Assembly (NCBI GenBank): GCA_018398765.1
Contig: JAHBMJ010004531.1
Span: 5,001 to 69,000 of the forward strand
Direction: 5' to 3'
Source: Chromera velia
Taxonomy: Eukaryota > Sar > Chromeraceae
Length of the DNA: 64,000 nt
Shown piece by piece: positions 5,404 to 60,711 of this stretch (positions are counted from its first letter, which is position 1; each line of letters opens with the position of its first letter). Made by a program: the position numbers and the translations under genes. The notes under the pieces are model-generated. The model had not been told where the DNA came from, made no database searches, and saw only the letters and a program-made list of their open reading frames with translations.

Positions 5404-6254
5404 TCGTTCTGGCGCCGCCAGGCAGTTGAGGACAATATATAATCCGGCCAAAAATAAAAATCACTATCACAAAAAACGGATAAATACATGAAGGTCAGGT
5501 AAATAACTGTACAGATGTAAAAGCTGCAGATATAAAAAAAAAAACTGTATGGGGTTTATGCCGTTTACCCGCATCTTATACAGCTATAGAACATTAAAAA
5601 CTTGGTTCACAAAACTGTCGCAGGCAATTCCAGGAAAAATGCCTAACCGATTTTCACGCGCGCCGGTTGTTAAAAGCTATGCACGTCCCCAACCAGATCC
5701 ATTCGATGTGAAATTAAAAGTTCAATTAACTATCCAGATATAATGAATTTAGAAATTAATCGATACAGACAAAAGATACCCGATAAGTATCTGTAAGTTT
5801 AATTTAGTTTAATTTCAAAAGTTAACATCGTTCTGGCGCCGCCAGGCAGTCCAGGACAATATACAATCCGGCCAAAAATAAAAATCACTAACACAAAAAA
5901 CGGATAAATACATGAAGGTCAGGTAAATGACTGTACAGATATAAAAGCTGGAGATGTAAAAAAAAAGCTGCATGGGGTCTATGCCGTTTACCCGCATCTT
6001 ATGCAGCTATGGAGCGTCAAAAACTTAGTTCACAAAACTGTCGCAGGCAATTCCAGGAAAAATGCCCAACCGCGCGAAAATCGCGCGCGCGCGGTTGTTG
6101 AAAGCCATGCACGTCCCCAACCGGATCCATTCGATGTGAAATTAAAAGTTCAATTAACTATCCAGATATAATGAATTTGGAAATTAATCGATACAGACAA
6201 AAGATACAAATATACCGATAAGTATCTGTAAGTTTAATTTCAAAAGTTAACATC
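5404..6254. repeat. ~424-bp unit in direct tandem duplication
   Basis: Copy 1 starts at 5404 and copy 2 at 5828, each opening with TCGTTCTGGCGCCGCCAGGC and ending near AAAAGTTAACATCG. The copies differ by scattered substitutions and small indels. The unit contains a GC palindrome at the start, an A-run, and a CGCGCG-rich spot in its middle (5657-5670, 6071-6093). Short open frames inside it are not conserved between copies, so it is taken as non-coding. Its family is unknown. Confidence 0.85.
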
Positions 6255-6710
6255 GATATAATATATTTTTGCAGGTATATATATACATATCGGTCGACCG
6301 ACGGGGGAGGATCTCCAAGTGTATGTGTGTATACACGTCTTGTAGTACAGCTGCCGGATTCTTCTCTGAAAGCTGGGGTCGACCTCTCTGTGGTTCAAGA
6401 CGGAAGAAGCAAAGTTCGTTTTCCTTGATCGAGACGAGACTATCGACAGACAGTGAGATAAGAAAGGAGCTTTCCGCACGTGTGTGAAGGGAAGTGAAAC
6501 CAGACGAGACTGCCCCTTTCGATTGTTCGTTCTACGTAGGGCAATTCACTTCATCGGGTCTTCCGAGAAGTTGAGACGACCTTCAAGTTGAAACCTTTCT
6601 TTCGTTGTGAGGAAGAAAGAAGACCTACTTCTCTTTCTCTGTCCCTCCGTCGAAGATTTCAAGATAGAGAGACAAGAGCGGTGACCGAGCAAGAGAGAAA
6701 GATTTTCGCA
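6255..6710 (+). promoter_or_regulatory. Probable promoter and 5' UTR of the giant secreted-protein gene
   Basis: This is the 456 bases between the 424-bp repeat and the chosen ATG at 6711. A TA-rich start (6251-6285) is followed by more GC-balanced sequence. An in-frame upstream ATG exists at 6588, but it would bury the signal-like hydrophobic segment, so the region is read as untranslated. Confidence 0.35.
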
Positions 6711-7976
6711 ATGACGGAAGACGGGGCGTATCGCTGCAAGTCGTTGCGGAGGAACGCCTCGTTCCTTCTGCTGGTGGCATTCGCTCACGGGGGATCCAAA
6801 GCAGACGCATTTGCACAGGTAATTTCTTTCGGGAAGGGTTAGTCATGTGATACATGCATTTTTCAATTCAGAAAGCTTTTGCTTTTAACTGCTCCGCTGT
6901 GATGGTATGAGTCGATACAGGCATACACACACCGCCACTGACACATGCATGTAAGCACAAGAAGATGGACGAAGAGCACAACCGGCACAAACCGTGACGT
7001 TTGCACTCCGTCCCTTTCTTTTCATCCTCGGCATGCATTTTGTCTTTTCGGCCTTCCTGCATGCATGCAGAAATCATTGGCACTGAAGGTCAAACCACAA
7101 AAAGCCAATGAAGCAAGGGAAGCAGATTGGGTCAGTCCAGATCTTTCTTGCGTACTCTCCTTGACGCAATTTCCACAATTTAGACCTCTCACTCATCCGT
7201 ACCTCTCTTCTTCATACTTCATAGGTGCACTGTCGGTTTACATATCACGGGTTTACACCTTTGTTTTTCTGTCTTGCTAGCTCTCTGTGCACCCACTTGG
7301 ATGTTTTGGTATATTCACATGCTTTGCATCGCCCTTTATGAGGGAGCACGCCCTGTGTTTGTTCCTTTTCAAATGAGCACGCAGAGTGCGAACGCACATC
7401 CTCATACTTTCTCCATCTATGTGCAGAAGAGAGAGGTGCGGGACTTTGTGGCATCGAGCGAGTCCTCCCTTCTTTTGCCTTCCCAAGTGGAGCCTTCCCT
7501 GTTCAGCAAGGAGGACTCCGAGTGGAGAAAGGAACTCGAGGAGGCCTTCCTGCAACTCAGAGAGGTGAGTGAGTGCACGGGAATGCATGGCGGTTGGCAC
7601 GAATCACTTCACCGGAATTGACGGGAAACAAAAATCCCAAGCAAATTGAGAAAAACATGGTCATGCATGCATGGAAGGGCGCGCAGACAGAGAGAGAGAG
7701 ATGGCTACACCATATGCAGAAAAGAAAGGAAAATCTTTTGGGCTCAAGCAAAGAGCTCATAGAGAGATGGTAAGGATGCTTCATCAATAAAAAAGGGGAA
7801 AGGCAAGAAGCAGGAAACAAGGGACAAAATTTAGTGCAGTGCTGTTGTACTTGTGGGTGAGTATCTCCGCTAAGGAGAGCACCAATGTGAGCAGGCGCGA
7901 GAAGGAGCGCTAGCATTTGTGTATGCTGACGGATTGATCTGCAAGAATCGCCTTCTCTCTCCCCCCCCCCCCCCCN

Positions 7977-8007
<31 letters not shown>

Positions 8008-11000
8008 CAGGGTGCTGGAAGTTCAGCAAAGGTCGAGGCGTTTGACTGCTCAGCGGGAGTCCCAGGCGCACCAGGGGTCGCACCTATGTCGAAGGCCAAT
8101 TGTAAACAGGCGTGCGAGCAGACAAAAAGGGATCCATCCTGGTGCGACACTAAAGTAAAGGACTGCGATGATGACGACTGCAAGGCAAAGGCTGGCGAAG
8201 AGACTGTAGACTGCAGTAGCTTCTCGAAAGCAGAAGAATGCCAAGCCCAGTGCAAGGAGAAGGGGTTGAATTCGGAGATCTGCAAAACGGCAAAGGGGGA
8301 CCTCCCTGGAGGAGACTCCACCGACTCCGCCCCTGCCCCTACCGAAGAGGCCCCCAAGGTCGGTCAGAAAAACAGACAGACTGTAGAATCAAGCCCAACA
8401 AAATGGACATGCATGCAACATAAAAACAAAGACAGAAAAGGAGAGTTAGAGAGAACTAGGCAGGCAGGCAAACAGGGACCTCAGCATCCAGACAGACGGA
8501 CAAAGAGAGAGAGAATGCCACAGATAGAGGAAAACACAGGCACACACAAACAATCAGAGACCGGAATAGAGTGCAAAAATGCAATGACAAGTGGAGGGGG
8601 GGGGGGGCAGTTTGGGCAAAATTGACACTGACCAAGTAGGTCTGCGTGATCCTAGATCAATGCAAGCGAAAGAGCGAAGTACATTTCAAATTGGTTGGGA
8701 TCTTCTCTTCTCTTCCTGTACCGTGCCCCCCTTCCTCTTCTCTTCTCTCCTTGGCGATGTGATTGCCCGATACGCCTGTCAATAAATCCCTTCGACGATC
8801 GTCTCCCTCCCTGCCCCTCCTTGCGAATATAAACATGAGCTTCCTGTCAGGAAGGCTCTTTTCTTCCTGAGTCGTTGGACATCTCTTGCTCTTCTTTCTC
8901 ACTTCCTTTCACTTTCCTCACTTGGAGCATGGTCTGTTCTTTCACTCAAGCACCCGTCACCATTTGCTTCCATGTTGATTGATTACCTCCTCATTCTTTC
9001 TTCCCGCCTCCCCCCCCCCTCTCTCTCTTTCTGCAGACCGGGAGAAACCTCGAGCTCCCCGAGTTCGACTGTCCTAAGGCTGCCGATGACGCCACCGAAG
9101 AAGGAAAGGCGACTCACAAACTCAACTGCAAGAGGAAGTGCTACCTTGACTCCAAACGCTCCCACTCCTTTTGCGACGGACTCGACCCCGTCACGGCTGA
9201 GGTCAAAGAAGCTGCCGCCACGATTGAATGCCAGGACAAGACGCCCGAGGCGTGCGAGTCAGAGTGCAAAACGAAAAACGCAAATGAGATCGCGTGCATG
9301 ATCGCGAAGGTTCATCCAGATGCTGCGGTCAGTTTAGAATTCTTAGAGGAATCGCGTGTACACATGCCGTATGGGTTTTCACCCTTTGTATCTTTCAAAT
9401 CCTCTTCTTTCCTTTCCCTCGATCGCGTTCCTGCCACCTTCTTTTCTTCTCGGGCGCAACTTTCCACGACCCCTGCGTGTCGGCCTGTCATCTTGAGCGT
9501 CCCTCTGTCAGTCCGTGCAACTGTCTTCTGCTTGGCTTTCTTATCTTCCCTCTGAATGTGTCGCAGCTGCCCAAGGGGACCGACGTCAAGCTGGGAGGTT
9601 TCGAGTGCGAGAAAACGGCGGACGACGCGGAAGACGGGGCGAAGACAACCGCAAAACAGACGTGCGCAGCAGAGTGCCAGAAGACCAAATTGTCCCCTGT
9701 CTTCTGTACAATGAACACCGACCCCACCTCCGAGGCCGTCTCGAAACCCGAGACGACCCTGGAATGCTCTTCGAAGGAACCCGACGCTTGCATACAAGAG
9801 TGCAAAGACAAGGAAGCAAGTGAAGCAACGTGTGATGAAGCCATCCTCAATGGAGAGAAGGGAGTCAGTCGAACTGTCTGCATGCCTGTGTCTCTCTCTG
9901 GCTCTATGCCCGTCTGGGAGGTTGTCTGTCTTTCTCTGTGTCTGTCTATCGGGAAATGCGCCAGTCTGCTGGGCGCTTTCGTTTTTCTCCGCTCAGCATC
10001 TGTTTGAGCAGGCATGTTCTTAAGATGGTAGATTCCGTCCTCTTTGCACCATTGAACCTCCCCCGTGAGCCCCCCTCCCTCCCCCCCCCCCACATACACA
10101 CGCACACGCACACAAATTTGGAGGGAGGGAAAGGGATGGAGGGGGAAAGGCAGAGTGAGAGTGAGAGGGAGAGTGAGAGGGAGAGGGAGATAGAAGAAGA
10201 GGAACGGACAGTCAGAAAAGAAGAAAGGTGAACCTTTTCGTGCTTGCAGGCATCTGGCGGTGCTTCTGATGGTAAACCCAAGGTCTGTCTGTCTATCTGT
10301 CTGTCTGTCTGTCTGTCTGTCAGTCTGTCGGTCTGTCGGTCTGTCGGTCTGTCTGTCTGTCTGTCTGTCGGTCTGTCGGTCTGTCGGTCTGTCGGTCTGT
10401 CTGTCTGTCTCTCTGTCGGTCTGTCTGTCTGTCGGTCTGTCGGTCTGTCGGTCTGTCGGTCTGTCGGTCTGTCGGTCTGTCGGTCTGTCTGTCTGTCTGT
10501 CTGTGTGTCTACTCTTTCGTGCATTTCACTTCGGTTCCTTGGCTCTCTTTCTTCTCCATCCGTGGCTGTCTCATCTACCTGCTTTGGATTTCACTGGGGC
10601 CCTTTTGGGTTTTATCTGTCCTTCTGCATCTATCTGTCATCAAGTTTGCTTCCTAGAGTTTCCCTTTCTCGGCATTTCTTTCTTTCCTTCCCTCGTGCAT
10701 TCTGCGTTTCTGTCTGCTGACTGTTTTTTCCTCTTTTTCTAGCCATTGGTATCTGCAAACACATTGTCCAATCTGTCGATCAATCTCTCTCGTTTTCCCA
10801 AAAGCCAATATCCTCTTGACTCATGTCCCTTTCTTCAACTTTCTTTCCGTTCTGCTTTGCATGGGTCGATCATTCTCTTTTTTCCCTTTCGATCTGGCAC
10901 TCTCTCGACATTTTTGTCTGCAGGTCCAGGCGCTCTTCGACAAAACGGTTGGCCGGATGGCAAAACTTCTGCTTTTTCTGCCCTTCACTCAATTTTTCTC

Positions 11001-12759
11001 TCAGTCGTTCTTCCATCCATCCATCCATCCATCCATCCATCCATTCATACGTGCATTCATCCATCCATCCATCCATCCATCCATCCATTCATACGTGCAT
11101 TCATTCATCCATCCATCCATCCATCCATCCATCCATTCATACGTGCATTCATCCATCCATCCATCCATCCATTCATACGTGCATTCATCCATCCATCCAT
11201 CCATCCATCCATCCATTCATACGTGCATTCATTCATCCATCCATCCATCCATCCATCCATTCATACGTGCATTCATACGTGCATCCATCCACCGACACAT
11301 CCGTCGTCCTTTTTTCATCCAGCGAGTCCGTGCACAGAGTTTGCGGCAAAAAAAAGAAAAACTGAATCCGTACGTTGAGAGGGAAGATCTGAAAGTCCTA
11401 CGTACGGACACATAGATTGTCAGAGGACAAAACTGTAAGGACAGTTAAAACAACGAAATGAAGCATTCGAACAAGAGGGCTAGAAATCCAAAGCAGAGAG
11501 GGAAAGGGAGAAAGAGAGAAGTGAGGGAGGGTCGAAGAACGGAACGTCTGTTCATGTCTCATTTTTTGCCTGCTGAAAGGATAAGACAGGAATTTTTTCT
11601 GCCCACTGTCAGAGGATTTCCTTACTCGGCTTCTTTTGCCGGCATGAAGTCTAGATGACTGAAACAAGCTACTTGGAAGGAGTGCATTTGACTCGGATTT
11701 GAGTTAGTCCATCAGGAATGAAATGAATGATAAGACCACATTCGTTTTTCTTCTCTTGATTGGACGCTTCGATCTCTGCATTTCTGTTCTAATTCGCTTC
11801 TTTTTTTTTGTCCTTCCTTTGCATGCCTGCAGCCTGAAGAGCAAGCTCTGGAGGTCTGTTGAAACAAAGCAGAATCGAAAGACACCTTTTTCCTTCCTTT
11901 CTCCTTCGATGCCAATTTAAAAGGGAAAATCTTCTTTTCGTAGCGGTGCCTCTTGTTTTTCTCCGTTCTTTTTTTGTCCTTGTGCACGAACCCCCGTATG
12001 TGAAAGTGCTTCGTCCTCTTCACCCAAGGCATGTGTGTGCGATCATCTGGTCGTGTTTGATGGAAATCATCTGGTGATGTCTGTGTCTCTCTTGCAGGAA
12101 CCTCTCGGCAATGCGGTGAGTGAGTTGCTGAGTGAGTAAGGGAGTAACAGAGTGAGCTGCCGACTTTCTGAATCCACAAGAGAGAGCGGGATGTTAGAAA
12201 GCATTTTGAGACGGATGGAAGGGAAAGGAGTGAGGTCATATGCAAAGTGGCTGTCTGCGATTCAGGTCTCTCTCTCTCTCTCTCTGAGTGTGTGTACTTT
12301 TGCGGGTGGGAGAGGGTGTCAGGTGGTGTGTGAGGTTCTGACGTTGTGCGTTTGACGAGTAATGCAGAGAGGTAGCGACAGAGTGGTCCTGTCGCAACAC
12401 CTCCAGTGGGAACGTGTGCCCCTCTGTGAATTCATTGCTTTGCGATCATTGCTTATGTTTCCCCCCTTTCTATCTATTTGTACCTCCTTCCCTCCTTCCC
12501 TCTGATTCCTCTACCCCCTCTGTGAGCAGCCTGCCAAGGCCATGGCTTCGGTCAGTGCATCTCCCCGAAGACGCTCTTGGCACTGCACGCTTGTAGACGA
12601 GAGACCCTTGAAAACTTGAGATTTATTTGTTGTTTTGTTCTTGCTGCATTGGCCACGCACAGCTCTCTTGAGGTTTTTTTCTGCGTCTCCTCTTCTGCAT
12701 TCCCTCCCTCCCTCCCTGGGTTCTTCTTCGGTTCATGCGACCTGGCCTCAAAGACGCTC

Positions 12760-12800
<41 letters not shown>

Positions 12801-12801
12801 T

Positions 12802-12843
<42 letters not shown>

Positions 12844-15800
12844 TCTTGCCGCTGCCTCCCCCAACCTCTCTTTTAATGACAGCGTTAGACCCAGGCAGCA
12901 TTCAGCCCATGAGGCGCAAAAAGCGAATGCAATTTCCCTTTTGTGCTATTATTGGAATGGCCTGTTGCAATCCATTCAACGCGATGTGATGTGACGGTCT
13001 CCCATCCTCCATTGCATTGCATTGGATTGCATTGCAGGTCCATGGAATGATCAAGATGGGAAAGGTCAGCGATCGAGCTGGTCGGACAATTCATGTAACA
13101 GCAGATTTGAGGGTGGCATGACCTGAATTGAGGGGAAGAGAGGACAGACAATCCTATAGGCCATCTAAGCAAACTTACAAGGTGTTTTTCGTAAAACAGA
13201 ATTTCCATTCTCATCTCTGCTTCTACTGTGAGCACACAAACAGCATGGAATGCCCTTTCCTTTCCGTCAAATGAGGGCCACAGTCTAGGCAGAGCCAAGA
13301 CAGGGTGACCGTGAGATGGAATGAAGTGTTTCAGAAGAAAAACAGGAATGGAAACGAGAAGACGAGACAGGGAGTGGGCGGACGAAGCCGTACGACCTGT
13401 TCACGAAATGAAAAGATGGAGAGCAAAAATGGCAGCTGCGAAAGAGAATCAGAAGTTTGTAAGTAGGCAGGCAAAACTAGTGGGTACTGACCAAGTGCAT
13501 GAGTGAAAACGTGAGTGGATGATTTGGTGACTGAATGCAGAAAGCTCCCCCCAAACTCCAAAAAGCGGTCAGTCTGCCAGCCAATCATGGACTGAATTCA
13601 ACGAAAAACTCCGAGCTGTTGTGCTCTCACACACATAAAACAAAATGACGCGCTGTCCCTCCCTGTTTCCGTCCTCACTGCTTTCTTCCATTTTTGTCTC
13701 ACATCTGTTGCGTGCTACTCCCGTCATGTTTTTCTGCTGCTGTTCTCTTTCCTCTTGATCACAAGCGAATAAAAGAAAGGTTCTCATTATCCCACCCCAT
13801 CAGCACGGCCCCACTGTGTTTGTAGTGAATGCTCTCCTTGGCCTCCGTCTATTCGATCTTCGATTGCGCCCTGCAATGAACAAAAATTTTTCAAATGAAA
13901 TGTGACCCACTCTGCATGCATGAATTGTGCAGTTGAGAGGCGCTCTTTCAGCGGTAGGCGTTCGAACTCTGCTTCTTTCCCCTCCAAATCGATGGAGGGA
14001 TTTTTTTTTTTTGTTTTACAGAAAGTGCCTTTGTTCTTCGTCGCTCTTTTGAGTGGTGCGTCCGTTGGTGCCCCCGTCTGTTTCTTTGCCAGGTTGCTTT
14101 GATGGTTCATCTTTCATAGACAGCCAGAGTCACCAAATTGTCTCAATCTGTGTCTCAATCTGTGTCTCTTTGTTTCTCTCTTTCTTTTTGCCTCTCATTT
14201 TCTGTTTGTATTCGTGTCTTCACACTCATTTGTTCGTCGCTTTCTCTGTCCCCTTGCCCAGAATTCCTGTACGCATCTCGTCTTTGTCTTCCTGATCTCC
14301 GTATTTCCTTCCACTCCTTTCTCCGTTTCCTTGTTTCCCTCTTTCCTTCCCCCTCTCCATCTAACAGTTGGCCTCGAAGGTTGATGCCTCAGCACCGGTC
14401 AGTCTATCTCTTTGTGAAGACACATTCACCTCCTCAGACAGATCTGGTGCTGTTCTGAACGCGAAACAAAGAAACAGTGTAAATTACAATTCTACCAGCC
14501 TGTGGAGGGCAAGCTTTGTCTGTGCATCCATATGCAGATCTGTATTTCTTCTTTCAACTAAAGTAGCCGCCGCTGTCTTCCTGCCTCTTTATCGTCCATA
14601 TGTGCACTTTTCGCGGATATGTGAACTCTTCCACACATTTGTGTACGCAAAACTGGGCTTGATTTGCTTTTCACTAGCAGTCTGTCAGTCTGGGTTCGCT
14701 CTTTTCTCACTGCGCCTTTCTTCTTCTGGCCCTCTCCCTGCCTGCCTCCCTCTCAATGCAGCCTCCAGTCCCTGAGGTGAGTGGACCGGTGGACGGTGTG
14801 GAGTTTCACGGGGATGAAAAGGGCAAGAAAATAAAAAAGTCTTCCGTAGCATTATCAAGGTTTCTCTATTTTCTGCTGCTTTCGGGCGTAATTGCCGTAC
14901 TGAATGGCTCAATGGTGCTTCACTCTCTTCTTTTCTTTTCCTTCGTTTTCTGTTTCATTTTCTCCTCTCCTTTTCTTCTTTGTTCCCATTGGTGTCCCTC
15001 TTTGCCTCTTCTGATCGTCATATTTGTTCCAACCATCCCCTCCTTCCCTCTGGCAACTCGCTGTCGCCTGCAGGTAATCGCAGCTGATGAGTTGAAGGTG
15101 CGTCATTTCTTCTGTATAACTGCTGTGTCTCTCTCCCGCCAGCCTCCCGCTCTATCTTTTTGTTTGGTCATTTGTCAAATGTGTTGCTTCGACGACCTTT
15201 GAGCCGTCGTCTTCTCTTGTCTGCTAGACTTCCTCTTCATTCTGATTTGGAACATTCTTGCTTTCCGTTCTGTTGGTTTCAGCTGAAAGACTTCTGCATA
15301 CAAAAGGGACATGCTTGTTTGTTTGGAAACAGTCTTGATTTGCCCACTTTTCATTTTTGAAGCGGGCATCGGGAAAGGAAATTTTGCAGTTGCATCGAAT
15401 ATGTGAATAGAACCGATACCGAATCAAACCTTTTCTCAGTTCATGAAAGTCCTTTGATTGTCTTTCTTTTTGTTCTGACTGCAGAAGGGCAAACTTCAAG
15501 TCAGTCCTCAAACAAAGCAACTTGTCTGATGTTCCGTCTTTTGCTTTATCAACCTATCAAGAGCCTACATTGCTCTATGCGTCTTTTTCTTTCATCGTGA
15601 GCCTGAACAGAGAGAGGTGCTCAAACAGAAAGAGAGAGAGAGTGACCACCTCTTCTCATCTTGCGTTGCGTTGTGCCGTGGCCCTCAGGTCCTCCCTCAC
15701 TGTGCTCATTTACCAATCAGAATGTGGTCAGCAGGTGAAAAGTCAACGTTCTTTAGATGCCAAAAGACTTTCTTGTGTCCAAAAGCACGCATGGGTGGAC

Positions 15801-17252
15801 GGATGGAATGGTATCTCGATACATGTATGTATGTGTGAACAAATTTGTGGCTGCATGTATGTGTGGGTGCAGTTGGTGAAGTTGATCTTCGGCCTGAAAG
15901 ATGTGATGACTCCTGAGCCCAACTCCGTCCCGGACTTCCTCAAGAATCCCAATAACGGGGGAGCAGGATTCAAAAATGTCTGTCTGCAGTGGTCTTTGCC
16001 TGTTTGCTTGTGTTTTGCTGCTTGGAGTAATTGATTGATTTCCCTTTGAGTGGGGGGAACCGATTGATGGGTTCAACCAATGATGGTGCTGCTCAGTGCA
16101 TGTGCGTCAACAACGATCGAATTAATGGCTCAGCAGTCGTCCTTTGCTTGCCTTCCATGGGGTGTTTGCTTCTCTTGATCCTTTTTTGCCATCCGTTGCG
16201 TCTCTGCCATCCACACATATGCATGCGCGTTTACGTGTGTGTATCCTTCCTGCCATGCACATGCAGCTGGACTCAAAAGTTTTTGGAGACGAATTTCTTG
16301 ATGCGGTCAGTGTTCCTCGATTCCTTCCTTAGATGTGCCTGTCTTCTTGCCATATTTTTCACTACATGTTGGATCGTTTGTGGACTATTTATTTTTGCAC
16401 TGCTTTATGTAGATTCGATCCGTCTCCGCACATCGGCATCTCGACTTTCTGCAGGCCCTTTTGTTGCCTCATCTGCGTCCTTGCGTGCATCAATCGACTT
16501 TCTGCTCTTTTTTTGCCTCATCTGTGTACAGATTGATCTGCCCTTTTCCCCTTAATCTGGCTTTTTGTTTTGGCATTTCTCTTTTCATTCTTCTTTCTTC
16601 CTTCTCTGCAGGTTGCTGAAGCCTCAGGACCTTCGCCTGTTGGTCATGGAGGGGATTGCTTGCGAGGGAATTCAAAACAGTTGGAGGGAACTTGTTGCTC
16701 CATTTTGAAGTGTTTGATGAACAACAACGGACAAAGCGATCGAGGGAGATTGAGAAATGAACACACAAGTGACCACAGAACATCCAGAGAGAGCAAGAGA
16801 GAGAAAAAGAGAGAAAGATAAGCAGACAGCGGGACAAGGGGATCGATGGTATCGCTCTCGTCTTACAGAATCTTCTCTCATACACATCTCTCCTCTCCAC
16901 CAACAAATATAGGAAGGAAATCGATTCTTGATGTTGCAAGGAAAAGCTCGAGGAAAGATTATCTCATGCAGTTCGAAATAATGAAACAACGCAAACTGAA
17001 AATTCTCTACCCAACCCGATTCATGCATCTACTGATTCTCACAAGGGGTCTGTCTGTCTGTTTTTTGGGGTCTTTGTCTCTCTCTTTCTTATTCTGCTTG
17101 CAGCACTCCGGTGCAGCCCTACTGGTGGGCGCCGTTGTTGAGGTCTGTCTCTCTGTTGTTTGTATCAAAATATCTGCTCTGTGAATGAATGAAACAAAGA
17201 ATGAATGAATGAGTGAAGGAGTGGCTGAGTGAATGACGGAATCTGTGTGTGT

Positions 17253-17289
<37 letters not shown>

Positions 17290-18513
17290 AGTCAGAATTC
17301 TCTCTATCTCCCTCTGTCCCCCTGTTTGTACGTGTATGTTCGCATTGGTTTTAGTGATCCGGAGTTGTGTCCGCCCGCGAGACTCACTATGCAGCCTTTT
17401 GCAATACTTTCCTCCCTTTTTTGACTACCTGACTATACGCATCCCTGAGAATCCCAGGAAGCCCAGGAAAAAGTGTCCAGACAGCCGACAGAGGCAACAA
17501 AGACACAAACAAGTACAGAGAGACGGCATACGACCCATTGTCTCTGTATCCTGAATGAACGAACGTCCTGCAGGGGCTGCAAGATCAGTCGAACGATGAT
17601 CTTGTGAAGGGTTCCGCTCCCATCAGGTCTTTCCTCGAGAGCCCTAAGGGACCCGTCAAATCGGTAGGTCCACTTGGCAAAAAAAGACGAAACAACCAGG
17701 ACTGTGCTATTTGTTAGGAAAGATTTGCGGATGAAAGAAAAGAGAAATGACGCGGAGACCTACCAAAGAGTAGCGTGAGAACCAGTACAGAAACTAGCAC
17801 AGAACAGAAAGCACGGAAGAGGAAGGCAGAAAAGTTTGAAGATTCCGAAAATCTCTGCCACGGTTTTATTCTTCGGACAAAAATTTACGCAGAGAATTTA
17901 CAGTCTTTCGTCTCTTCTGTTTTCGTACAAAAAAAATCACAAAGGACGTGTGGTGTGCGTTTATCAAGTTCCGATTTACGAGAATGGTTTTCAAAAGTTT
18001 GAATACAAAAGACGCTTTACCCGAGCAATTGATCTCTATCTCTCTCTGTGCAGCTCGACCGCATCAAGGATCTTCTTTCAAAGGAGCCAGCAACAGGATC
18101 GTGGGATGTCGGTCGAGCACAGGACAGTCAGAGAGGGGGAAGGGGGTGTTGGATTCTTTCTTTCTTTCTGTCTGTCTGTCTGTCTGTCTTTCTTTCTTTC
18201 TTTCTTTCTTTCGTTCGTTCGTTCGTTCGTTTCTTTCTTTCTTTCGTTCGTTCGTTCGTTCGTTNNNNNNNNNNNNNNNNNNNNNNNNNNNNNNNNNNNN
18301 NNNNNNNNNNNNNNNNNNNNNNNNNNNNNNNNNNNNNNNNNNNNNNNNNNNNNNNNNNNNNNNNNNNNNNNNNNNNNNNNNNNNNNNNNNNNNNNNNNNN
18401 NNNNNNNNNNNNNNNNNNNNNNNNNNNNNNNNNNNNNNNNNNNNNNNNNNNNNNNNNNNNNNNNNNNNNNNNNNNNNNNNNNNNNNNNNNNNNNNNNNNN
18501 NNNNNNNNNNNNN

Positions 18514-18582
<69 letters not shown>

Positions 18583-21249
18583 TTGGGGTCGCCGATCGAA
18601 AAACTTTTGTTTTTAGTCATGTGTTGCTGCTTCTGGTAGCAAACGAAGTACAATTGCAAAATGTAGAGGACATGAATACGCTTATGCCTTGCTTTGTTCT
18701 CTGTCAGGCAATGTGACTCATTCAAATTGTTTTCTTTCTTCTCTGCTTAATGGGTTGCTCTCTGTATCCCTGTTCTTTCCACTTTTAATTCTGATTGGAG
18801 GCTGGAGGGGGAGGGTGTGGAAAATCGAGAAAAGAGGAGAGGATTGAGACGGCAATGATGATTTGAATTTTCCCCTTTTCTAGCTCCCTTCAACGGCCGC
18901 CCCCTCCCTCCTTATGCTTGTCATTATTTATCAGACTGATTGAATTCATCTTTATCTGCTTTGTCTTATCTTTCCGCTTTTCTGGCCGGCCGAAACTTTC
19001 TTTGTCTGACCGTCTTTCTTTTTTTTTGGCGACAATTTTAAAGGATGTCTGTCCATTGCTCTGCTCAGGCGAGTTGATTAAAAGACCCTTTTTCCCCTTT
19101 TGCAGGCCGTGAAGGAAAATGTGTTTGATGAAGCGCTAAAGCTCTTCCGCTTTGTCTACGTGAGTCTCTGTCCTTTTCCTTCTTGCACAAATCGGTTTTC
19201 CTTCAGTCGGTTTGTCGGTGTGTGTACGTGCGTGTCGTTCCACCAAGTACTTTACTGTCTGTGATTTTCCCTCCCCGAGGCGGATCAAGCTCATTCCGAT
19301 GTATCCGTGCACAATGTGAGTGTGTGTGTGTGTGTGTGTGTGTGAAACGAGTCGTCCGTCTTCATACGATTCAAACGAGAAACAAACAATTGTGTCGTCG
19401 CCTTTTTTGCTCTTCCTGTCCGTTTGCTTGGAAACACCTTCTTCTCTCTGCATTTGTTGTCTACATTCATTCCTGCTCACTTCCTCTCCCTTTCCCTCTC
19501 TCTTCCTTCTGGTGTTCTTGCAGATGGAGGTCTGTTTCTTAATTTATGGGTCCGACGACCTCTGCTTGTTTGTTTGTTTTTTTCATCGATGACATTTTTT
19601 TTCTCAGAAAAGAATTTTTCCACATGATTCTGTTCCCTGTTGCATTTGGGTGGTCGAATGCAGTGGGTGAACTCACTTTCCTTTCAATTATCCTTTGGTC
19701 TTTTGATTCTATCAGCAATCAGTCAACCGATCCGTCCGTCCATGAAGAGAATTCTCGACCCTCTCGCTAGACTACGAGTTCAGCTTTCACTTGCATCCAA
19801 GAGGAGGAACAAAAATGATTTCATCCCCGCACATCGGACTCTCCCTTCATTTTTTTTACTCTTCCACTGTATCCATCCATCCACATGATTGCAGTCAAAT
19901 CCCATGATTGCTGCCGACACGGAACTCGTCAGCGGGGTCAGCCGTCGCGTTTGTCTGCCTAGCTGTTTGTTTTGTTTGTCTGCTCCCTCGAATGGGAGTC
20001 TTTGTGGATTTTTCCTCCAGGGGAATTTTCTCTCGTTTTCCTTTTTTGTTTTTTCAATCGATCGGGTTCTGCATCCGGATGACCGCCTCTGTTCTTTTCT
20101 TTTCTTTTCTTTAGAGAGAGAGAGAGAGCAGGTGGAAGTTGCAATCAGACAACATTTCTCCGCAGACTCCCTCTGTGTCTCTTTCCAACTTTTTATTCAT
20201 CTCCCATGTCTCCCTCTTTCTCTCCTCTGGGACTCTCTCTTTTTCTCTGCAGTTTGAAAGCTTCTCGGACTCGGTCAGTCTTCATTGGAGCATGAGGAGG
20301 GCGAAGAGGACAGGGTCGATGGGAAAGATGTGAATGTACCAACGTTGTGCTTCGGAAAAGTGTGGTGTTGGTTTTGATTTTCTCAAAACGTCCAGCCTTC
20401 ATTTTCTGCCACTGAACTCGTTTTTCTCTTCCATTCCCCTTTTTCCTCTTCACTTGTTTTTGCTGCCTGCGTTGGTTTATTGCTCCCTGAGTCGCAGGGC
20501 ATCGTCAGGAGAGTCCGGAAATCAATGCCCGCCCGATCCCCTTTCATGCGTTCTTTTCAATCTTTCGAATTCGTCATCCGCCTATCTCCCCAGACAGAGA
20601 TGAATATATAACTCTTCTATGCTGATTCACGCATGTTCCTGCAGGTTGCCCACTTGGGACACGAAGGGTCGGACCCTGCAGAGCAGATGACGGCCGTGAA
20701 AGATCAGTTCAACAGTCTCGCACAGGTAAGCAGACAGGCAGACAGGCAGAAAGGTGGACAAGGTCGAGAAGTATTCGATGGGATTGATGTACCTTCCCGC
20801 GAGGTAGACGCACCTTCTGTTCTTCTTTCAGTGCTCTTTCAATTGGTTTTTCTTTTCTTTTCACTGGTTCTCTTTCCCATTCATCTCGGGGCCTTTGCCG
20901 AAAAGAGTTTTCCTTCCTTCCTTCTTTCCCTCCTTCCTTTTTTTTTTCCTTCCTTCCTTCCTTCTTTCTTTCTTTCTTTCTTTCTTTCTTTCCCTTTTTT
21001 GTTTTCTCTCATTGATTGATCCACCGTTGACCAGGTCCAAAAGAGGGCTTGTGAAAGTTCCCTGGAGATAGAGCTACTTGTTTTGGTTTTGACACATTGG
21101 TTTCTCGGCATTCCGTTGCCTCTTAGTCGATGCAATCTGTCACGATTTTGTTTGCCCATTCTCGGAAATAACTTTGCGCACAACTTTTGTCTTCACTTTC
21201 TTTCCCTCCCTTTCAACTTGTTTCCTCCTTCCTTGCAGAAATCGGGGGT

Positions 21250-21314
<65 letters not shown>

Positions 21315-24300
21315 CTGTTCCCATTACTTGTCTTCTATTTTCTGTCTGAATTACTGCGTCCTTCATGATCCCTGGTTCGTCTGTTCAAGGCTCTTTCAAG
21401 AGAGTACGTGTTCTTTCAAAGACGTGACAAAGGATTTGTGAATCGGATCACTCACCTATAAGCCTGTCCTATCTGTACTTAGAGAAACAGGGCCTGTCTT
21501 TGTTTTTGTCTCTTTTCGTTTCGGACCAAGATGCGATGATCTGTGGGCACCCTTGCCGCGGATGGATTCAGTAATGTGCATGTTGTGATCTCTTCTCGAA
21601 TCACCGTTCTTTGATGAGTTTCTTCCTGTGCTGATGCCCTACTATTCTCACGTCTGCAGGCAACTCCGGTCAGTTCGTGGATTGGTTGGGCGGTCTGCTG
21701 ATTTGTTCTCAGCATCGTTTGCGTCTGTCTGTGCGTGCTTTTCATGTTGTTCCCTTCCGTCTCTTTTTTTCTTGACATCGTCCTCGGCTCTTTAGGTTCT
21801 CTTCCGTGCAAGATTTACGTTTTAATTTTTGAGGGCATCTCTCTTTTTGGCCTTTGCAAAAGACCCTCTGAGCCCTTTTCCTATCAGTGTCGCTACAAGA
21901 ATGCTTCACACTTCTTTTTCCTCTTCTTGTTCTATGAGAGTGTTGTGACAGCATTAAGAGAGCATCGTCGACCCCTCAAGCTTCCATTGTCCATTACTTT
22001 TTCTCCCCTGTCTAACTTGCTCCCTTCTCTCCTTCTGTTTTCCCTCTGCACACATACGCAATTGGTGCAATCGGTTCATCTTCACTTGGCTCATCTCTAC
22101 TCAGGTGGTCAGTCAACTCTCTCAATTCATTCGGGCCCTTTTTTTCCTTCTGACTGCCTGTCACAAGTCGCATTCAGGCAGCCTCCAGTCGCTCTGCCTT
22201 TTTTGTTTTCCGCTGTTTTGTCATTTCAGTTCCATTTTTACCCTTTAATTTTCCTCTCAGGTAGGTGTTGGAGGCCTGCAGGCCAGCCACGTGCATGCTT
22301 GCATGGTCCCCTTCTTTCAATCCAGCGGAAAGACTTTTGAAAGTTGAATTGTAGTCAATGTCGTGCCCATGCCAGCAGCATGCTTTCGGTTCGACACTCC
22401 AATTTTTTCCACTGTATCATTATTTTCCTCCATGCGACTCTCGGTTGTTGCAGACCGGTGGAGCGGCCAAGAGTGCAGAGGGAGCAGATGCCAAGGGAAA
22501 GGACGTTGAAATTTTGCCGGCTTTCACCTGTGCAAAGGAGGACGACAAAACCAAATGCATAGAGAAGTGCAAGGCCTCGCGCCCCGATACCGATTCGCCC
22601 TGGTGCACAGAAAACGACGCCGAGTTGGACCCTGCAGGGAACGAGAAGGAGTTTCCTGCAGTCGTCCTAGAGTGCTCCAAACTCGAGAAGGACGCTTGCC
22701 AGGCCAAATGCACGGAACTGAAGGCACCCGCTGATAAGTGCCAAGAGGCGCTCTCGGGGTATCCGGCTGCAACCGAGGTAAGAAGGGAGATGGGAATTCC
22801 ATCGCGGCTCTGTTTCTGTGTCTCCTTTATGCGTCTCCACGTCTTTTTTACCCCCTTTTTTGGTTCTCAGGCAAATGAGGCTTTCTTTGCGTGTCCTTTG
22901 TAAGTCTGCTGAAGGCAAAGAGTCCCTCTTTGTTCTAGAAAGATTTTGCGCTCCAACCTGACGTTCTTTTCTTTTTCTGTACACGTGATCGTTTGCCTTC
23001 CACTGTTCCCCCCCCCCCGTGGGGTTCTTGCAGGTCTGCATGTTGATTGTGCATTGCATGTGGTTGCATGCCACCCACCCTTTTGTGAGGTTCGAAATTG
23101 AGATCCCGAGTTGTCCTCTTATTTCTTCTTTTCGTTCCTTTTCTCCCACTTTTTCCTCTGCTCACTTTCTCCCAACCTTATTCTGACCCATTGCAGCAGC
23201 AACAGAGTGACAGCGCTACAGAGGCTTGCCCCGGTGGACAGAAGGGCACGAAGTTCACACTGCCAGGCTTCGAGTGCCCTGTGGATACTACAAAGGAAGC
23301 GTGCATTGACGCGTGCAAGGACAACTCAGAGTTCATAGAGGACACGTGCTTTGAAGAATGGGGGAAGGGAACGAAGTCAGCGGACAAATCAAAACTGACG
23401 GAAAAGATGGAGGTTGCAGCGGTTCCAATTGATTGCTGCGAGAAGAGCAAGACTGAGTGCGAGAGCCTCTGCAAAGGCCGAGGAATCAAACCCGCCACGT
23501 GTACTACAAAATCAGAAGCCATCGGAGAATTCGTACGTCTCTTGGACTCTTCTTTTTTTTTTTTCTTCATCTTTTGGTTCTGTCTCCCGTCTGACTTCCT
23601 TCATTTTGGGGCATCTATGATGTCCTGTTCTGTAATCGCACAGGGAGAGAGAGAGAGAGAGAGTTCTCGTGTGTCCTCTGAAGAAGAAAAGCCATTCTGG
23701 AAGGAAGATGGAAGATGGACATATATGCACTTGTCGAAGTGCAAACGGCGCCATTCGACTGTGCCTTGCTGTATGTCTGCGACTGTCTGTCATTCTGTCC
23801 ATCCATTGACTTTGTTTCGAATTTGCATCTTCGTTGCCGCCTTGATCTTTCTTCTGTAAGTGTGTAAACAGTCCGCCGACTCACAGGAAAAAAAAAAAGG
23901 CCGAATGAATCATTGCGTATGCCTTCCGTCTGCCCGTCTTTCTGACTGTCTGTGCAGCTCCAGTTGGAGGACTCTGAAAAGTACACGTGGCCTGGAGCAA
24001 CACAATTGAGCACAAAGGTAGGGGGTGTCCGCATTTATTTGCAGGGGGGGGGCGGAGGGGGGTGGGCGCCTGCGTCTGTACATGTAACCTCCCTCTGAGA
24101 ACATTAGTGACGCTCAGTTGTTTGCCTCTTATGGTTTGATGATGTACAATGGCGTTTTTTTGAAAATTTGGTATTTTGCTCTTCCGTTTCTCTTCCTCTG
24201 GTCTCTCCATTCCGTTTTTCAATGTGTTCTTTCCCAATCTCTTCCTGTTGCTGAGACAGTGTAAGCATACATGTGCGTATATGCATTATTTCTGTATGCG

Positions 24301-27300
24301 AGAAGAAGAGGGAAAGAACGGATGCGTGCTCCTTCGCAATTGTATCCAAATCATGCATCCGACTGTTTCGTTTCTGTTGCCCTCTGTCAAAGAATACTCG
24401 CGCTGAAATCTGTTCCGTTGTATTCATTGTGCAGATGAACGAAGTCGGCCAAAAGATGCAAGAGGCCTATAACGAGGCCGCCTCCGAAATCAAAGCATTC
24501 GACGACGCCAAGGCCGAAGCAGCCAGTCCTACCAGTTTCGCCCCAGACACGATGACCGCCTCCAAGGACGTTCTTGGAGAAACCTTCGCAGGCAACCTAG
24601 AGTTGATGAAGTGGGAGATCACAGAGAGCCCCGTAGCCAAAGCGCAAGATCTCTTCATCGACGCAAAACCGATCCGAACCCTGAAGGACTTAAAGAAAAC
24701 CAAAAAGCTGCTCTCGGATGTTGCCACTGCTGTGAAGGAAGAGGAGACCAAAGCCGCTGCCACCACGACAGAACAAAACTTCCTCCAGGAATCCGCTGAC
24801 CCCCCTGAGACGGCTCTAGCAACCACACTCGACGATGAAACCCAAGTAGGCACTCCTATGGGAAATTTGTATGATGCCGTCAAGACCGCCATGGGCGCCT
24901 TGCACAAGGAGATACAGACAAAAGTCAAGGCAGCAGAGGCTTCAGGGGACGCCGTTAAGATTACCAGTTGGACCAATTTTGCCTTTTATGTTGATCATGG
25001 AGTCGGCCGGGCGATCAGCAAAGAGAAGAGGGCGTTGGAGAAGGAGGCGCTCTCAGCAGCAGAGCACGCAATTGCAGAGGGCGACCTAGACAAACTCGAG
25101 GAGGCCAGAGAATTGGTCGATCAAATGAATCCTCCCAACGCAGACGCCAAACCCCAAAACCCCCTGGTGGCCATGAAGAGCAAGGTAGAGATCATGATTG
25201 AGGACATCGAGCAGGCCGAATCCTCAGAAGAGAGAAAGGGAACAATCATCGAAAACAAGAAATTCAAGTGCAAAGCTACCGACCTTGCCAAATGCAAAGA
25301 AGAGTGCAAAGCCTTTGGAATCGCCGAAACGAAATGCGATGCAATCGCAGCAGACAGTATGGCAACTGAAATTGTGGTGAAGAAAGTCGATTGCACAACA
25401 GCGAAGAACAAAGAAGCCTGTGAAAAGATCTGCTCCGACGCCGGTACCGGCGGTGAGGCATCCCTGAACCCATCCGGGCCTCTTTGCAAGAAGGCCATCG
25501 GAAACCTTCGTCCTGGGCGCGGGGGTTCAGCCACCTTCGAAGTCAAGTGCACTAATATGAAACACGCAGCCTGCAAGACGGAGTGCGAGAAGGTCTTCAA
25601 AGGAGACTTCTGCGACCAGCAGCTCAAGGCAGAATACGGAGATCCCCCACCAGCAGACGACACCAAGACCTTGACGATCACACAGACCCCTTCTTGCAAG
25701 TTCCAAAAGACGGCTGCAGCTTGCGACGCTGCAATCGGAGGTCAAATCGACGTCGCCAAAGTGAAAGTAGATAGCGCTTCTCACAATGCACAATACAAAG
25801 AAACCATAGGTGACCTCCCCACATCTTTTCTGTCCCAAACCCAGGCCGAGACCGAAAAAGAAAACCACAGAGAGAAAGGAAGAGACTCACCAGATCCCAG
25901 CGTTGCCGATCAGTCAGTCGATCCCCTCGAAGACCTCTATGGAGACGGACTTACAGACGACTCAATTGACACCAACGACGTCTCCAAACTCAAGAAAGCA
26001 CTCGACAATCTCCGGATCGCCTACCGAATCAACAGCCGTCGTCCCCTCGACGTCGGTCGTCTGTTGAGTAAAATCAAGGCCTCCGCCACGCGCAAAGCCA
26101 ACCCAAAAGACAACCTTTTGAAGATGGCGGCAGTCCTTGCTGCTTACACAGGTCTCCGAAAACACTCCAAATTCGATAAGCACATGGAGATCACCTTCGC
26201 AGCCACTGAAGACCGTGCCCTCACATCCGCAGACATGCTCGACCTCTTCGGAAGCGTCCGACTCGATGAGGCGTTCCCCTTTCTGACTCAGTACTATTCC
26301 ATGGTCACTGAGGAAGAGCCGCGATTCACCACCCACACACTCCTCTCCAAGGTCGAGCAACAGCTCGACGAGATCAGAGAGGAGAAAGGCATGTTCGAGG
26401 ATGTCGATCTCGACGCCATCGCAGTAGACGAGGCCACATTCTTGGCTGAATTGAAGCAAAAGTGCGGGGCTGATCCGGATTGCGGCACCGAAATCGATGG
26501 CAGTGGCGCCTTAGCCACAGCGGCAAAGGCAGTCCGCACAGCGATCGACGCAGTGAACAAGAGGCACTTCAAGGCCATCGAGGACCGGAAGGCCGAGCTG
26601 CTCACAGACCGCACAGCCTTGATGTCAGGCGTCGAGGGCCTTACCGCAGAACTGATGAAGCTCCAAGTGATCCAACTGGCGAAAAGGGTCGGTTCGTAGA
26701 TGCGCAACAGAGACAGTGATCCAGGCACGCAGGCAGGCAGACCAGAAATCCTTTGTTCGTGAGGCAATCACTTCTTTCATCGCGTTGTTTTTTGTTCCTT
26801 GCATTGCAATCCGCTTATCTCTTTGATTTCGCTTCTTCTGGTCTCTCTTTTGCTCTAGTCTCTCTTTTGCTCATCTATCAGCTGCCTTTCTGCCCTCTGC
26901 AGCAGCTTGTTCAGTCATGAACTTGAGCCCAGACCAGAAACTGCGTCTTACCTTTCATGTCTAGAAGTAGGCTGGCTGTCCTTTCTTGGTTTTAATTTCA
27001 CATTTGATGGTTGCGTTATTTCTATCGGGTGAGTGGATGCAGAGAGACATGATCGAGAGGAAAATTGCGGCTGAAAAGCGTGCGGCCACCTCGACGGGGT
27101 TCCTGTCGATGAAGGAAAAGTCCACCACCGCCCTCACAGACCCTATCCCTCTAGACTCCGATATGTCCCCCCAAGTCCTCCAGAAGCTGCATGCCCTCGA
27201 CAGGGAGCTCCGACTGGTCAAACAGTTGATGAAGAAGAAAACAGTAGACCAAGAGGGGCATCAGATGGCCATGGCACAAATGAAAATGAAGGTAGAAGAA

Positions 27301-30300
27301 ATGAAGCTCTTCAAAGCTGGTATTCTTCACAGAAAACAAGCACTGAAGAAGCTCATTGACAGAACCAGTGACGACATTATCGACCTTCAACAAGAGAAGA
27401 AAGACACTCCTGCCGATCTGCAGAAGCATATCGACGCCAAAATTGCACAGAAGGACCTTCGTCTCACTGCTTTGAGGCAGAAGTACAACGATGCAAGTTC
27501 CAAGGAGGCCGCATGGAAGACAGCCAAAGAAGACCAGGCCGCCATGGCAAGAGAGCTAGACGAGGCAGCAAAAACCCGTGCCGCCTCAGGAGAGGACGAC
27601 ATCACAGAAGAAGAACTGAACGATCCGATGCTCTCATGGGCTCTTGAGAAGGAGCAAACCGCAAAGGATCTCACAGTAGCAATGCTCGCTCTGAATGACG
27701 ATTTCGAAATTGCGTCAATGGAGTGGGTCAGGGCCCGCCGTCGCCTGAATCAGGTGAGAGAGAAGCTCAGAGCAGAGCAGAAAAAGGACATTGTGGGCCT
27801 GGATCTTCATCATGATGAGAAGTGGCGCACTCTCCGTGAGGAGATCGAGAGGCTTCGAATGAAACTTCGAGAGAAAACACTGAAGATCCAGTTAGTCGAT
27901 CAGCAGCAGTCGGACGAACTCGATAAAGTCGTGCGTCTTCAGTCCCAGCTCGAGCTGCTGAACGCAGAGCAGTCAGCCATTGAGGCTAGAGACGACATTG
28001 CGCGAACACAGAGAGATCTTCAGAAGGAGAGCGTGAAGTCCGACAGCCCCCCTGGTGCGATCAACGCACTCGAGATCCAACTCGCCAATGACATCACCCA
28101 GGCCTCCAGGGCAGAGGCCGAGGCTGTCGGGAAGATGACCGCTGAGCTTTCAGAGCTAGTCGAGGATGTGCAGCGCGAGAAGGCCTCCCCTGCTTTCTTG
28201 TTGATGACTCCCACACAGCAGCAATCAGTAGAGATGGATCACGAAAATGAGATTCTCTTTCAACAGAAGATCCTGCAGGATTTTTTGAAAGCCAAAAATC
28301 CCCGCATGGAGAGAATGGTCATCAACAGAATCCTAGAGCTCGTGCAGAAGTCCGGTCTCTCCGATTTCACACGCGACACCGCACAGAGACAGATGGAAGA
28401 GACTATCAAAAACTCTCTCCGTCAGCAGATGATTGCAAAACTCCGCCAAGAGACCACCAAAGACCAAGTCGAGCTTCTCAACCGACAGTACCAGGATGCA
28501 AGGGACGCTGCCCGCTATGAAATTGAGAAGATTGCACGCAGAGAGGTGCAGATTCTCGATGCGCGAGATTCATCTGAAGGAGACGAGACCACAACAGCCC
28601 GAATGATCAGACACGGACCCCTCGTCGCACAGAAGATGGCCCAGATCGATAGGATTTATGACAACTACCTTGCAGGCAAACGTCAAGAATACGAGAGGGA
28701 CTTCATCGTCAAACCATTCAACGATGTCATCACAACAAAGATGCATCTCTGTGAGAAAGATTCATCCAGCCCTGATCCCCTGGCGGTCACTCCCATTAAG
28801 ACCAACCCTGTGTACAACAGAATCATTGAGAAGACAATCACAGGGTACAACCTAAGAGAAGAAGAGTTCGACAAGGAAGTACGAGTAGCCAAGTTCTACA
28901 TGAGTGCATACCCCCGAAGCATCGCCCGATTCGCCCCCGCCGCCCTTGACGTTGTCGCAGCCCCCGGAAAGCCTGAGGAGGGTGCCGACTTCAAGGGCTA
29001 CATTGACCAAGACTTCACCAAATGGGTCTCCACCGCCATCCACACAGCCCTCCTCTCCGAAACCGGAGACATCACTTCGTTCCTTGAGCTTGGCGCCGCC
29101 ACCCACTCCTTCCCTGACCCCTCAGGGCCCCCCGCCTCCTTCCTCGAACTCAGCCAGGGATCCCGCATAGAGAAGACAGTCCTCCCCAAATATCACCTTG
29201 AACATGCGGCAGAGAGGGAGGTGCTGCACTCAGCCATCGTGCAGCTGTCTGATGAAATCCAGGGACTCACGGAAGAGCTTGCGAAGATCACGCAGCAGCT
29301 GGAGGCCTACAAGACCAGAGCACCTCAAAACGAGTTTGAAGCAAGAACATTGAAGAGAGAGGTCGACGCTCTAGAGCAAGAACACAATAGCCTCCAGTCC
29401 CAGCTGGCCATCCGATCTGACAAGAAGTCGGCGCTCGAGAAGAAATTTGCCGGCCTTGCAACGAGAGACAACTCGGTGCAATCAGAGATGCGCACCCTGA
29501 AGACAAAGTTGGAGGATTGGCAAGACGGCATCGAGAAGGAAGAGGCAGCCGCAGTTCAGATTGATATCCTCAAGCTGCGTCTGGTCCTTTCGAGAAAGAA
29601 GGCCTCCATGGCCTCAGCCCAGACGATCATCGAGCTGGAGGCTCAAAAGCGAAATCTGAACGATCTGCTTCAGCAGCACAGAACAGAGCAAACAGCCATG
29701 AAGGGCCTATTAAAACGCTACCGGGCGTTCCCCTTCCTTGAACTCATGGCTCGTCAACTAACGAGACACATGGAGCAGGACTTCTACGAGCAGACCAACA
29801 GGTGTAAGCCCGAGAGCATCAAGGAAGTTCTCGACCAATACGTCTCAGCAGTCAAGGCCGCCCAGACAGCTGAGCTCACAGCCGCACCCCCCCCTCCCGG
29901 GGGACTTCCCCCCCGCGACGCAGAGAAATCCCTCATGCTCGCATTGAAATGGGACCGCATGAAGGAGGCAGAGGAGCTCACACTTGAGGACACCAGACAG
30001 TACATGGAACTCCGATCCAAGTTGACTGACGACGTCATCGATCTGTTTGCCAACGTTGCTTTGGACGCCATGCCCGACTCGAGGAAGATTGATGTCCTCG
30101 ACGAAGCCCGGACGTTCACAACAGACGAAATCGCATCAGCCAGACTCGAGGCAGGACAGAACAGAATCCGAAGAAAGGAGGCACTCAGAGATCCATCACA
30201 GGTCTGTCTGCCTTTTCCATTTTGCAGAAACAGATCCACGTCTGTGTCTATCTTTTCGTCTTGAGCACATATCTTCCTTCAGATCTGTGTCCTTGCGTCT

Positions 30301-33256: not shown

Positions 33257-33287
<31 letters not shown>

Positions 33288-51306: not shown

Positions 51307-51350
<44 letters not shown>

Positions 51351-51921: not shown

Positions 51922-51955
<34 letters not shown>

Positions 51956-57545: not shown

Positions 57546-57594
<49 letters not shown>

Positions 57595-60500: not shown

Positions 60501-60666
60501 ACACAGACACCCGACCGTCGAGGGAGGCCGTGAAAGCGAAATGGGAGGCCTCAGGGACCGGGTTGCCAACGAGGGCGAAGACGCGTGTGCGATGGAACTC
60601 CGGATGTTCCATGCGGTGGATCTGCTGACCTGCACACCCACGCACGCACGCACACACACACGCGCG

Positions 60667-60711
<45 letters not shown>

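Follow-up and report, generated by a model that had tools for sequence, protein, structure and literature searches.

A run of predicted symmetric microexons in a large Chromera velia gene, with a linker found cut and uncut within one gene family

Can a single gene of a photosynthetic alga carry two dozen very short exons in a row, and would such exons be joined or shuffled? This question is raised by a large gene in a window of 64,000 nucleotides from the Chromera velia CCMP2878 genome (C3565:5001–69000, within 178 Mb in 4040 contigs). An earlier note, made from the letters alone, had read the middle of this gene as about 20 exons of 9–54 nt plus three of 81–105 nt, all in phase 0 and separated by introns of several hundred bases, and had likened this layout to that of the schistosome micro-exon genes (MEGs). 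In our hand-completed model, 24 inner exons lie between positions 10250 and 21668, namely 20 of 9–54 nt, one of 6 nt and three of 81, 90 and 105 nt, reproducing the proposed count with one tiny exon in addition. They encode a linker of 275 residues (linker A) between two blocks of Cys modules; a second linker of similar length (linker B, 299 residues) follows further downstream.

Known from the genomic sequence plus the deposited gene model, the inner exons measure 6, 9, 9, 15, 15, 18, 21 (four times), 24, 24, 27, 27, 30, 33, 39, 39, 42, 54, 54, 81, 90 and 105 nt. Each of the 24 has a length divisible by three, is open and lies in phase 0, the introns between them are GT–AG introns of 244–998 nt, and any subset could be skipped without breaking the frame, as had been proposed. 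The 21 exons of at most 54 nt total 549 of the 9276 coding nt, or ~6%. The least certain are those with the weakest site scores (10924–10947, 12098–12115, 13933–13953, 14368–14397 and 19895–19936). A phase-free Viterbi parse, with splice matrices seeded by the gene's introns (inner acceptor 10250 included) and codon scores derived from its two largest exons, yielded 36 exons at an exon penalty of 16, among them 18 of the 24 inner ones, each in phase 0. Penalties of 10 and 19 resulted in 41 and 32 exons, respectively, and a penalty of 13 in 39, where the 15873 exon was extended to 15991, 16267–16305 was placed in phase 2 and an unlisted exon 16612–16642 was added. A gene finder without phase preference, run on the whole window, put 34 of 36 introns in phase 0, and its exon lengths fit 17 of the 24 inner exons in order; its output gives lengths, no borders, and its start and end differ from those of the hand model. 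A version retrained unsupervised on random loci apparently drifted to over-prediction, and its results were left unused. The intron 18108–19105 contains a 249-N assembly gap (18265–18513), which could hide a further microexon.

Chance splice-like motifs within one long intron or an intergenic gap might in principle mimic such a run. We therefore scanned, blind to frame, for acceptor–donor pairs 6–60 nt apart, using as control 380,000 bases from 19 random loci of 10 kb on both strands (38 strands). With matrices from the gene's exons outside the region and a threshold of 16, all 14 candidates were symmetric and open (14/16 at a threshold of 14); the control yielded 44 candidates, 14 symmetric and 9 open, and the antisense strand of the region a single one, not symmetric. 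Matrices trained on a paralog of the gene, described below, gave 17 candidates at a threshold of 16, each of them a listed exon and symmetric (control: 54 candidates, 17 symmetric, 12 open), and 24 at a threshold of 12, of which 19 were symmetric and all 19 listed. The maximum for any control strand was 3 symmetric open candidates at a threshold of 16 and 5 in a looser scan, and dinucleotide shuffles in 120-base blocks (n = 200) averaged 0.68 candidates, with at most 5 candidates and at most 3 symmetric ones. The joined codons of the inner exons scored +54.4 bits in frame 0 versus −135.6 and −150.4 bits in the other frames; length-matched open chunks of the surrounding introns scored −173 bits (sd 31; best −64, n = 500). 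Together with the deposited model, which runs through the region, and the paralog's own microexon run, which matches linker B when joined, these results make a chance artefact very improbable, even though five listed exons have weak sites and the penalty-13 parse deviates as described above. The scans and the codon score, and by analogy the paralog, likewise contradict the possibility that the segment 10283–22453 is one intron, and the deposited model, passing through as one protein, contradicts a meeting of two genes there; both had been named as alternatives in the earlier note. As far as can be judged from the genome, the symmetric microexon run in one protist gene is real, and the sequence anatomy proposed for it is confirmed, with its proposed function only partly supported.

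The deposited protein records only part of this run. Among 7985 candidates scored, the sole match to the joined predicted exons was UniRef A0A0G4HZS1 (P0001; Chromera velia CCMP2878, 1372 aa), one protein spanning Cys block 1, the exon region and linker B. It includes five of the 24 inner exons with identical borders (13038–13064, 15873–15977, 17104–17142, 17574–17663 and 20645–20725), spliced directly to each other and to the flanking exons, and the remaining 19 are absent, as is the 336-nt exon 23197–23532 with its two Cys modules. Its start differs from that of the hand model and it stops at ~26697, where the hand model splices onward at 26687; what follows 27043 may belong to a second gene. 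No transcript-like fragment of the region was found at E 0.1 among proteins of ~265–843 aa (7995 candidates sharing most words scored). The five-exon subset may reflect either genuine skipping or overlooked tiny exons. With short-read mapping of the 2015 era, very short exons can be missed. For C. velia, the gene-prediction passage of the genome paper names Augustus, with intron evidence from strand-specific RNA-seq mapped with TopHat2 (PMC4501334), and a passage in a Tetrahymena paper mentions a separate microexon search option of TopHat (PMC3274533).

Genuine skipping would mean that the symmetric microexons are left out in many combinations, as in schistosomes, resulting in many variants of the linker between the Cys blocks. 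The uniform phase of all 24 exons would permit it, since any subset keeps the frame. The five exons in P0001 (27, 39, 81, 90 and 105 nt), joined in frame, are neither the longest nor the best-scored set, and the annotation pipeline had RNA-seq hints. Furthermore, exon 19895–19936 could end at either of two phase-0 donors, 19927 and 19936, which are 9 nt apart; a choice between them would add or drop three residues.

The evidence on joining comes from the relatives of the gene. Genome-wide searches with the large exons returned two, one on contig C3819, with 35% identity in the Cys block 3 part and 41% in the tail, and a more distant one on C3820 (30–48% over three tail pieces); the single exon 8011–8358 matched only itself in a whole-genome search. 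The same phase-free gene finder, applied to C3819:1–20000, predicted 36 introns, 31 of them in phase 0, with a short-exon run between the first and last Cys blocks, in which 16 of 17 frame-blind candidates were symmetric. Consecutive ab initio exons of this run (6681–14876), when joined, aligned to linker B with a score of 228, compared to a mean of 41.8 (sd 7.2, best 72, n = 500) for shuffles and a best of 98 (n = 1000) for shuffles of exon order with intact exon peptides. This alignment is the clean test of homology; the genome-wide search and the ungapped block reported next lean partly on homology themselves. A spliced alignment restricted to phase 0 placed 27 exons on C3819 with a score of 299.5 (176–207 for 10 shuffled queries). 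After refinement by homology the run comprises 23 exons at 6681–16092, 22 of 9–45 nt and one of 99 nt, a count that includes 9901–9909, for which the spliced alignment gave 9907–9909, and leaves out the ab initio exon 11626–11652, unused by the spliced alignment, as well as weak upstream exons at 5727–5783 and 6155–6208. A whole-genome query of 219 joined residues, 196 of them encoded by the 23 microexons and 23 by the large exon that follows, retrieved window positions 24597–25271 with an E-value of 1.9e-22 and 34% identity over the full query. Within the block 12403–16092 (3.7 kb), the products of 11 successive microexons, 76 residues in all, align to linker B free of gaps, with 27 identities, 48 positives and a score of 148 (at most 44 in 2000 shuffles). 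Seven of these exons have their ab initio borders, one has another end, one keeps its borders but is read in another phase, and two were placed only by the homology-guided alignment. By this computational demonstration, the same predicted protein stretch, linker B, exists in one genome both cut, on C3819, and uncut, in the window gene. Since the C3819 microexons match a continuous stretch, they appear to be ordinary coding sequence, which when joined would yield a homologous product.

We consider it fairly probable that the run in the window is an intron-shattered linker of one large gene whose microexons are joined, and that the uncut linker B resulted from a block loss of introns. About 25 spliceosomal introns, all in phase 0, would cut the ~275-residue linker A into exons of 6–105 nt, and the gene would belong to a small family in which the C3819 member cuts the stretch before its last Cys block into 23 such exons. 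Most likely, the normal product would have all or nearly all microexons joined into a continuous, probably helical linker, and the whole intron block of linker B would have been lost at once via a spliced cDNA copy. That the family comes in both forms, cut and uncut, speaks for joining rather than for shuffling of the schistosome kind. Full inclusion in the mRNA is what we infer for the C3819 run; for linker A it is argued by analogy, as the direct homology concerns the paralog's microexons. The product may also be secreted; the N-terminus of the hand model (28 residues) shows a hydrophobic stretch by eye.

Skipping in many combinations appears unlikely next to this reading, as the joined paralog run equals a continuous stretch of the window gene, almost every intron of the gene shares the symmetry, those next to large exons too, and the short-read mapping of 2015 may have missed very short exons. 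The exon borders do not speak for skipping either. A single-sequence structure model of linker B is helical, at low confidence (mean pLDDT 55.9), and 19 of the 23 paralog borders fall inside its helices, about what the helical fraction of 0.77 predicts, so that in this model the exons do not seem to follow structural units. We give a similarly small chance to the broader proposal that two or more paralogs, having evolved this layout independently of schistosomes, generate combinatorial Cys-module proteins by including each of about two dozen phase-0 microexons independently, and that P0001 would be one such isoform.

Several observations weigh against an intron-shattered, fully joined linker. 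P0001 contains only five of the 24 inner exons and lacks the 336-nt exon, leaving room for skipping, and lowering the exon penalty takes the window parse out of phase 0 around 15873–16642. Linker A resembles neither linker B nor the C3819 run to a detectable degree, and a genome search for an uncut counterpart of it yielded none (8 candidates scored). On C3819, four of the 11 block exons were homology-assisted, replacing ab initio exons 15601–15660 and 15898–15931, so the figures for this block are not fully independent; plain tblastn with linker B gave no match within the run, as expected for exons so short, and an annotated protein for the C3819 gene was not found (7976 candidates of 1155–3677 aa scored). 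Finally, the window intron 30646/30905 is lacking in C3819 as well as in C3820, which fits intron gain.

Linkers A and B themselves were also compared as possible homologs. Their local alignment score of 46 lay close to that of shuffles (mean 39.4, sd 6.3; 77 of 500 reached 46), the global score fell below the shuffle mean and the hhalign probability was below 1%; homology between them is not supported, alike as they are in length. More short phase-0 exons lie upstream of the first Cys block at C3819:1954–3105, near the contig end, and may represent the end of a counterpart to linker A.

The phase pattern is not peculiar to the microexons. In the hand model 40 of 41 introns are in phase 0, large exons included, and only the last is in phase 2. 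Elsewhere ab initio models show mixed phases, with 5 of 23 introns in phase 0 for a WD40 neighbour and 11 of 20 for the C3820 paralog; uniform phase thus appears as a trait of the window gene and its closer paralog on C3819. A search for an intron family among the 41 window introns gave only matches of 25–43 nt, with matches to random loci also short, and comparing the 41 window with 25 C3819 introns revealed no similarity at E 1e-5. As the introns share no sequence family, recent tandem duplication of exons is unlikely, and recent tandem exon/intron duplication and an introner family were both rejected as sources of the run.

Intron positions bear on the direction of change. The window gene and C3819 have in common the phase-0 introns that follow 26687 and 30201 and probably also one that follows 31159, and differ in that the whole linker B run is found in C3819 only and the intron 30646/30905 in the window only. 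Had the linkers been continuous originally, phase-0 introns would have been inserted en masse into linker A of the window gene and linker B of C3819. This possibility, which we consider doubtful though less so than skipping, is consistent with the nearly exclusive use of phase 0 in these two genes next to the mixed phases of C3820 (ab initio), whose introns split a tail that is uninterrupted in the window (3159 nt) and in C3819 (3171 nt), with the intron 30646/30905 missing from both other copies, and with the ungapped 11-exon block, where the event left the coding length unchanged. Introns would have to have been inserted independently at least 23 times in C3819 and a similar number of times in the window gene, always in the same phase, and the introns show no common sequence family. 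Compared to at least 23 gains, one loss event is preferred by parsimony only, and we take loss as the tentative direction. The third family member lies at ~8624–22000 on the minus strand of C3820, and the exons of its ab initio model are mostly of ordinary size.

To place the window gene among known systems, we compared gene layouts and descriptions. In schistosome MEGs, as summarized in passages of two papers, most of the coding region consists of short symmetric exons (≤36 bp), all products carry a signal peptide and splice variants occur (PMC4350168, PMC8293314). The likeness claimed in the earlier note holds for the run of very short symmetric exons, with 16 of the 24 inner exons at or below 36 nt, and fails for the gene as a whole, in which microexons account for 549 of the 9276 coding nt and are accompanied by exons of 2253 and 3159 nt; the organism, too, is a different one, a photosynthetic alga. 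The gene is thus not a member of the schistosome MEG class. Schistosome VAL-6 has a MEG-like portion made up of very small symmetric exons, while the rest of the gene is different (passage in PMC4350168), and the window gene also has its tiny symmetric exons in one portion; organism and gene differ, and an uncut counterpart goes unmentioned in that passage on VAL-6.

Other genes with many small exons differ in phase or in what the exons encode. The exons of the collagen triple helix share a common phase and are constitutively joined, and the aphid bicycle genes have a Cys motif. Bicycle genes, putative effectors, are described in excerpts of PMC9168663 as having many small internal exons (~17 on average), nearly all in phase 2. 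They resemble the window gene in the number of small internal exons and in the nearly single phase, which is phase 0 here (40/41 introns) and phase 2 there; in that description small exons make up the gene throughout. The triple helix of fibrillar collagens, according to a passage of PMC4450265, is one continuous rod-like domain built from small exons by the dozen, whose ancestral size was 45 or 54 bp. Dozens of small exons may build one continuous domain in the window gene as well, whereas collagen exons encode one repeated sequence and the window exon peptides differ by eye, with unrelated introns. A listing-level search of the open-access literature on protists, alveolates, Chromera and apicomplexans found no gene with a microexon run in an alga or alveolate.

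Microexon-run genes have been described in flatworms and aphids, and the present family adds a cut and an uncut form in one genome. It offers a direct test of how introns are gained or lost by the dozen with the protein preserved, and makes it testable whether the spliceosome of the Chromera lineage reliably joins exons of 6–30 nt. In genes rich in microexons, annotation by short reads may drop genuine coding sequence.

Table 1 Coordinates of the gene and its parts in the window (parse, Viterbi parse; scan, frame-blind scan).
Feature	Position	Strand	Length and content	Support or remark
Whole gene, hand-completed model	6711..33465	+	42 exons, 9276 coding nt, 3091 aa + stop	
Cys block 1	8011..9863	+	three exons (348, 291, 297 nt)	two four-Cys modules each by eye
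Microexon 1	10250..10282	+	33 nt, 11 aa	parse + scan
Microexon 2	10924..10947	+	24 nt, VQALFDKT	weak donor
Microexon 3	11833..11853	+	21 nt, PEEQALE	parse + scan
Microexon 4	12098..12115	+	18 nt, EPLGNA	weak acceptor
Microexon 5	12530..12550	+	21 nt, PAKAMAS	parse + scan
Microexon 6	13038..13064	+	27 nt, VHGMIKMGK	parse, deposited model
Microexon 7	13541..13567	+	27 nt, KAPPKLQKA	parse + scan
Microexon 8	13933..13953	+	21 nt, LRGALSA	weak sites
Microexon 9	14368..14397	+	30 nt, 10 aa	weak acceptor
Microexon 10	14762..14776	+	15 nt, PPVPE	parse + scan
Microexon 11	15074..15097	+	24 nt, VIAADELK	parse
Microexon 12	15485..15499	+	15 nt, KGKLQ	parse + scan
Inner exon 13	15873..15977	+	105 nt	parse, deposited model
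Microexon 14	16267..16305	+	39 nt, 13 aa	parse + scan
Microexon 15	17104..17142	+	39 nt, 13 aa	parse + scan, deposited model
Inner exon 16	17574..17663	+	90 nt	weak acceptor; deposited model
Microexon 17	18054..18107	+	54 nt, 18 aa	parse + scan
Microexon 18	19106..19159	+	54 nt, 18 aa	parse + scan
Microexon 19	19524..19529	+	6 nt, ME	parse + scan
Microexon 20	19895..19936	+	42 nt, 14 aa	weak acceptor; alternative phase-0 donor 9 nt upstream (19927)
Microexon 21	20253..20273	+	21 nt, FESFSDS	parse + scan
Inner exon 22	20645..20725	+	81 nt	parse, deposited model
Microexon 23	21239..21247	+	9 nt, KSG	parse + scan
Microexon 24	21660..21668	+	9 nt, ATP	parse + scan
Cys block 2	22454..23532	+	exons 22454–22777 (324 nt) and 23197–23532 (336 nt)	
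2253-nt exon	24435..26687	+	2253 nt	first part, 24435–25271, is most of linker B
Tail exon	27043..30201	+	3159 nt	

The Cys modules follow the pattern C-x(n)-C-x3-C-x(n)-C, with at least 13 of them in 8011–25700 and, by eye, two per exon in five exons of ~300 nt. A Cys-module profile gave three weak matches in the PDB (best E 0.029). Pfam scans at E 0.001 detected no family in eight of nine proteins, P0001 among them, and the UniRef name of P0001, 'PH domain-containing', was not borne out by its scan. Scans of the window with Rfam (gathering scores) and for tRNAs returned nothing. Long arrays of four-base repeats lie within introns at 10283–10510, 11010–11290 and 33080–33330. The ninth protein scanned with Pfam is that of the neighbouring gene at 49581–63558 on the minus strand, which matches WD40 and a BRWD1-like N-terminal domain and has, in its ab initio model, the mixed intron phases given above.

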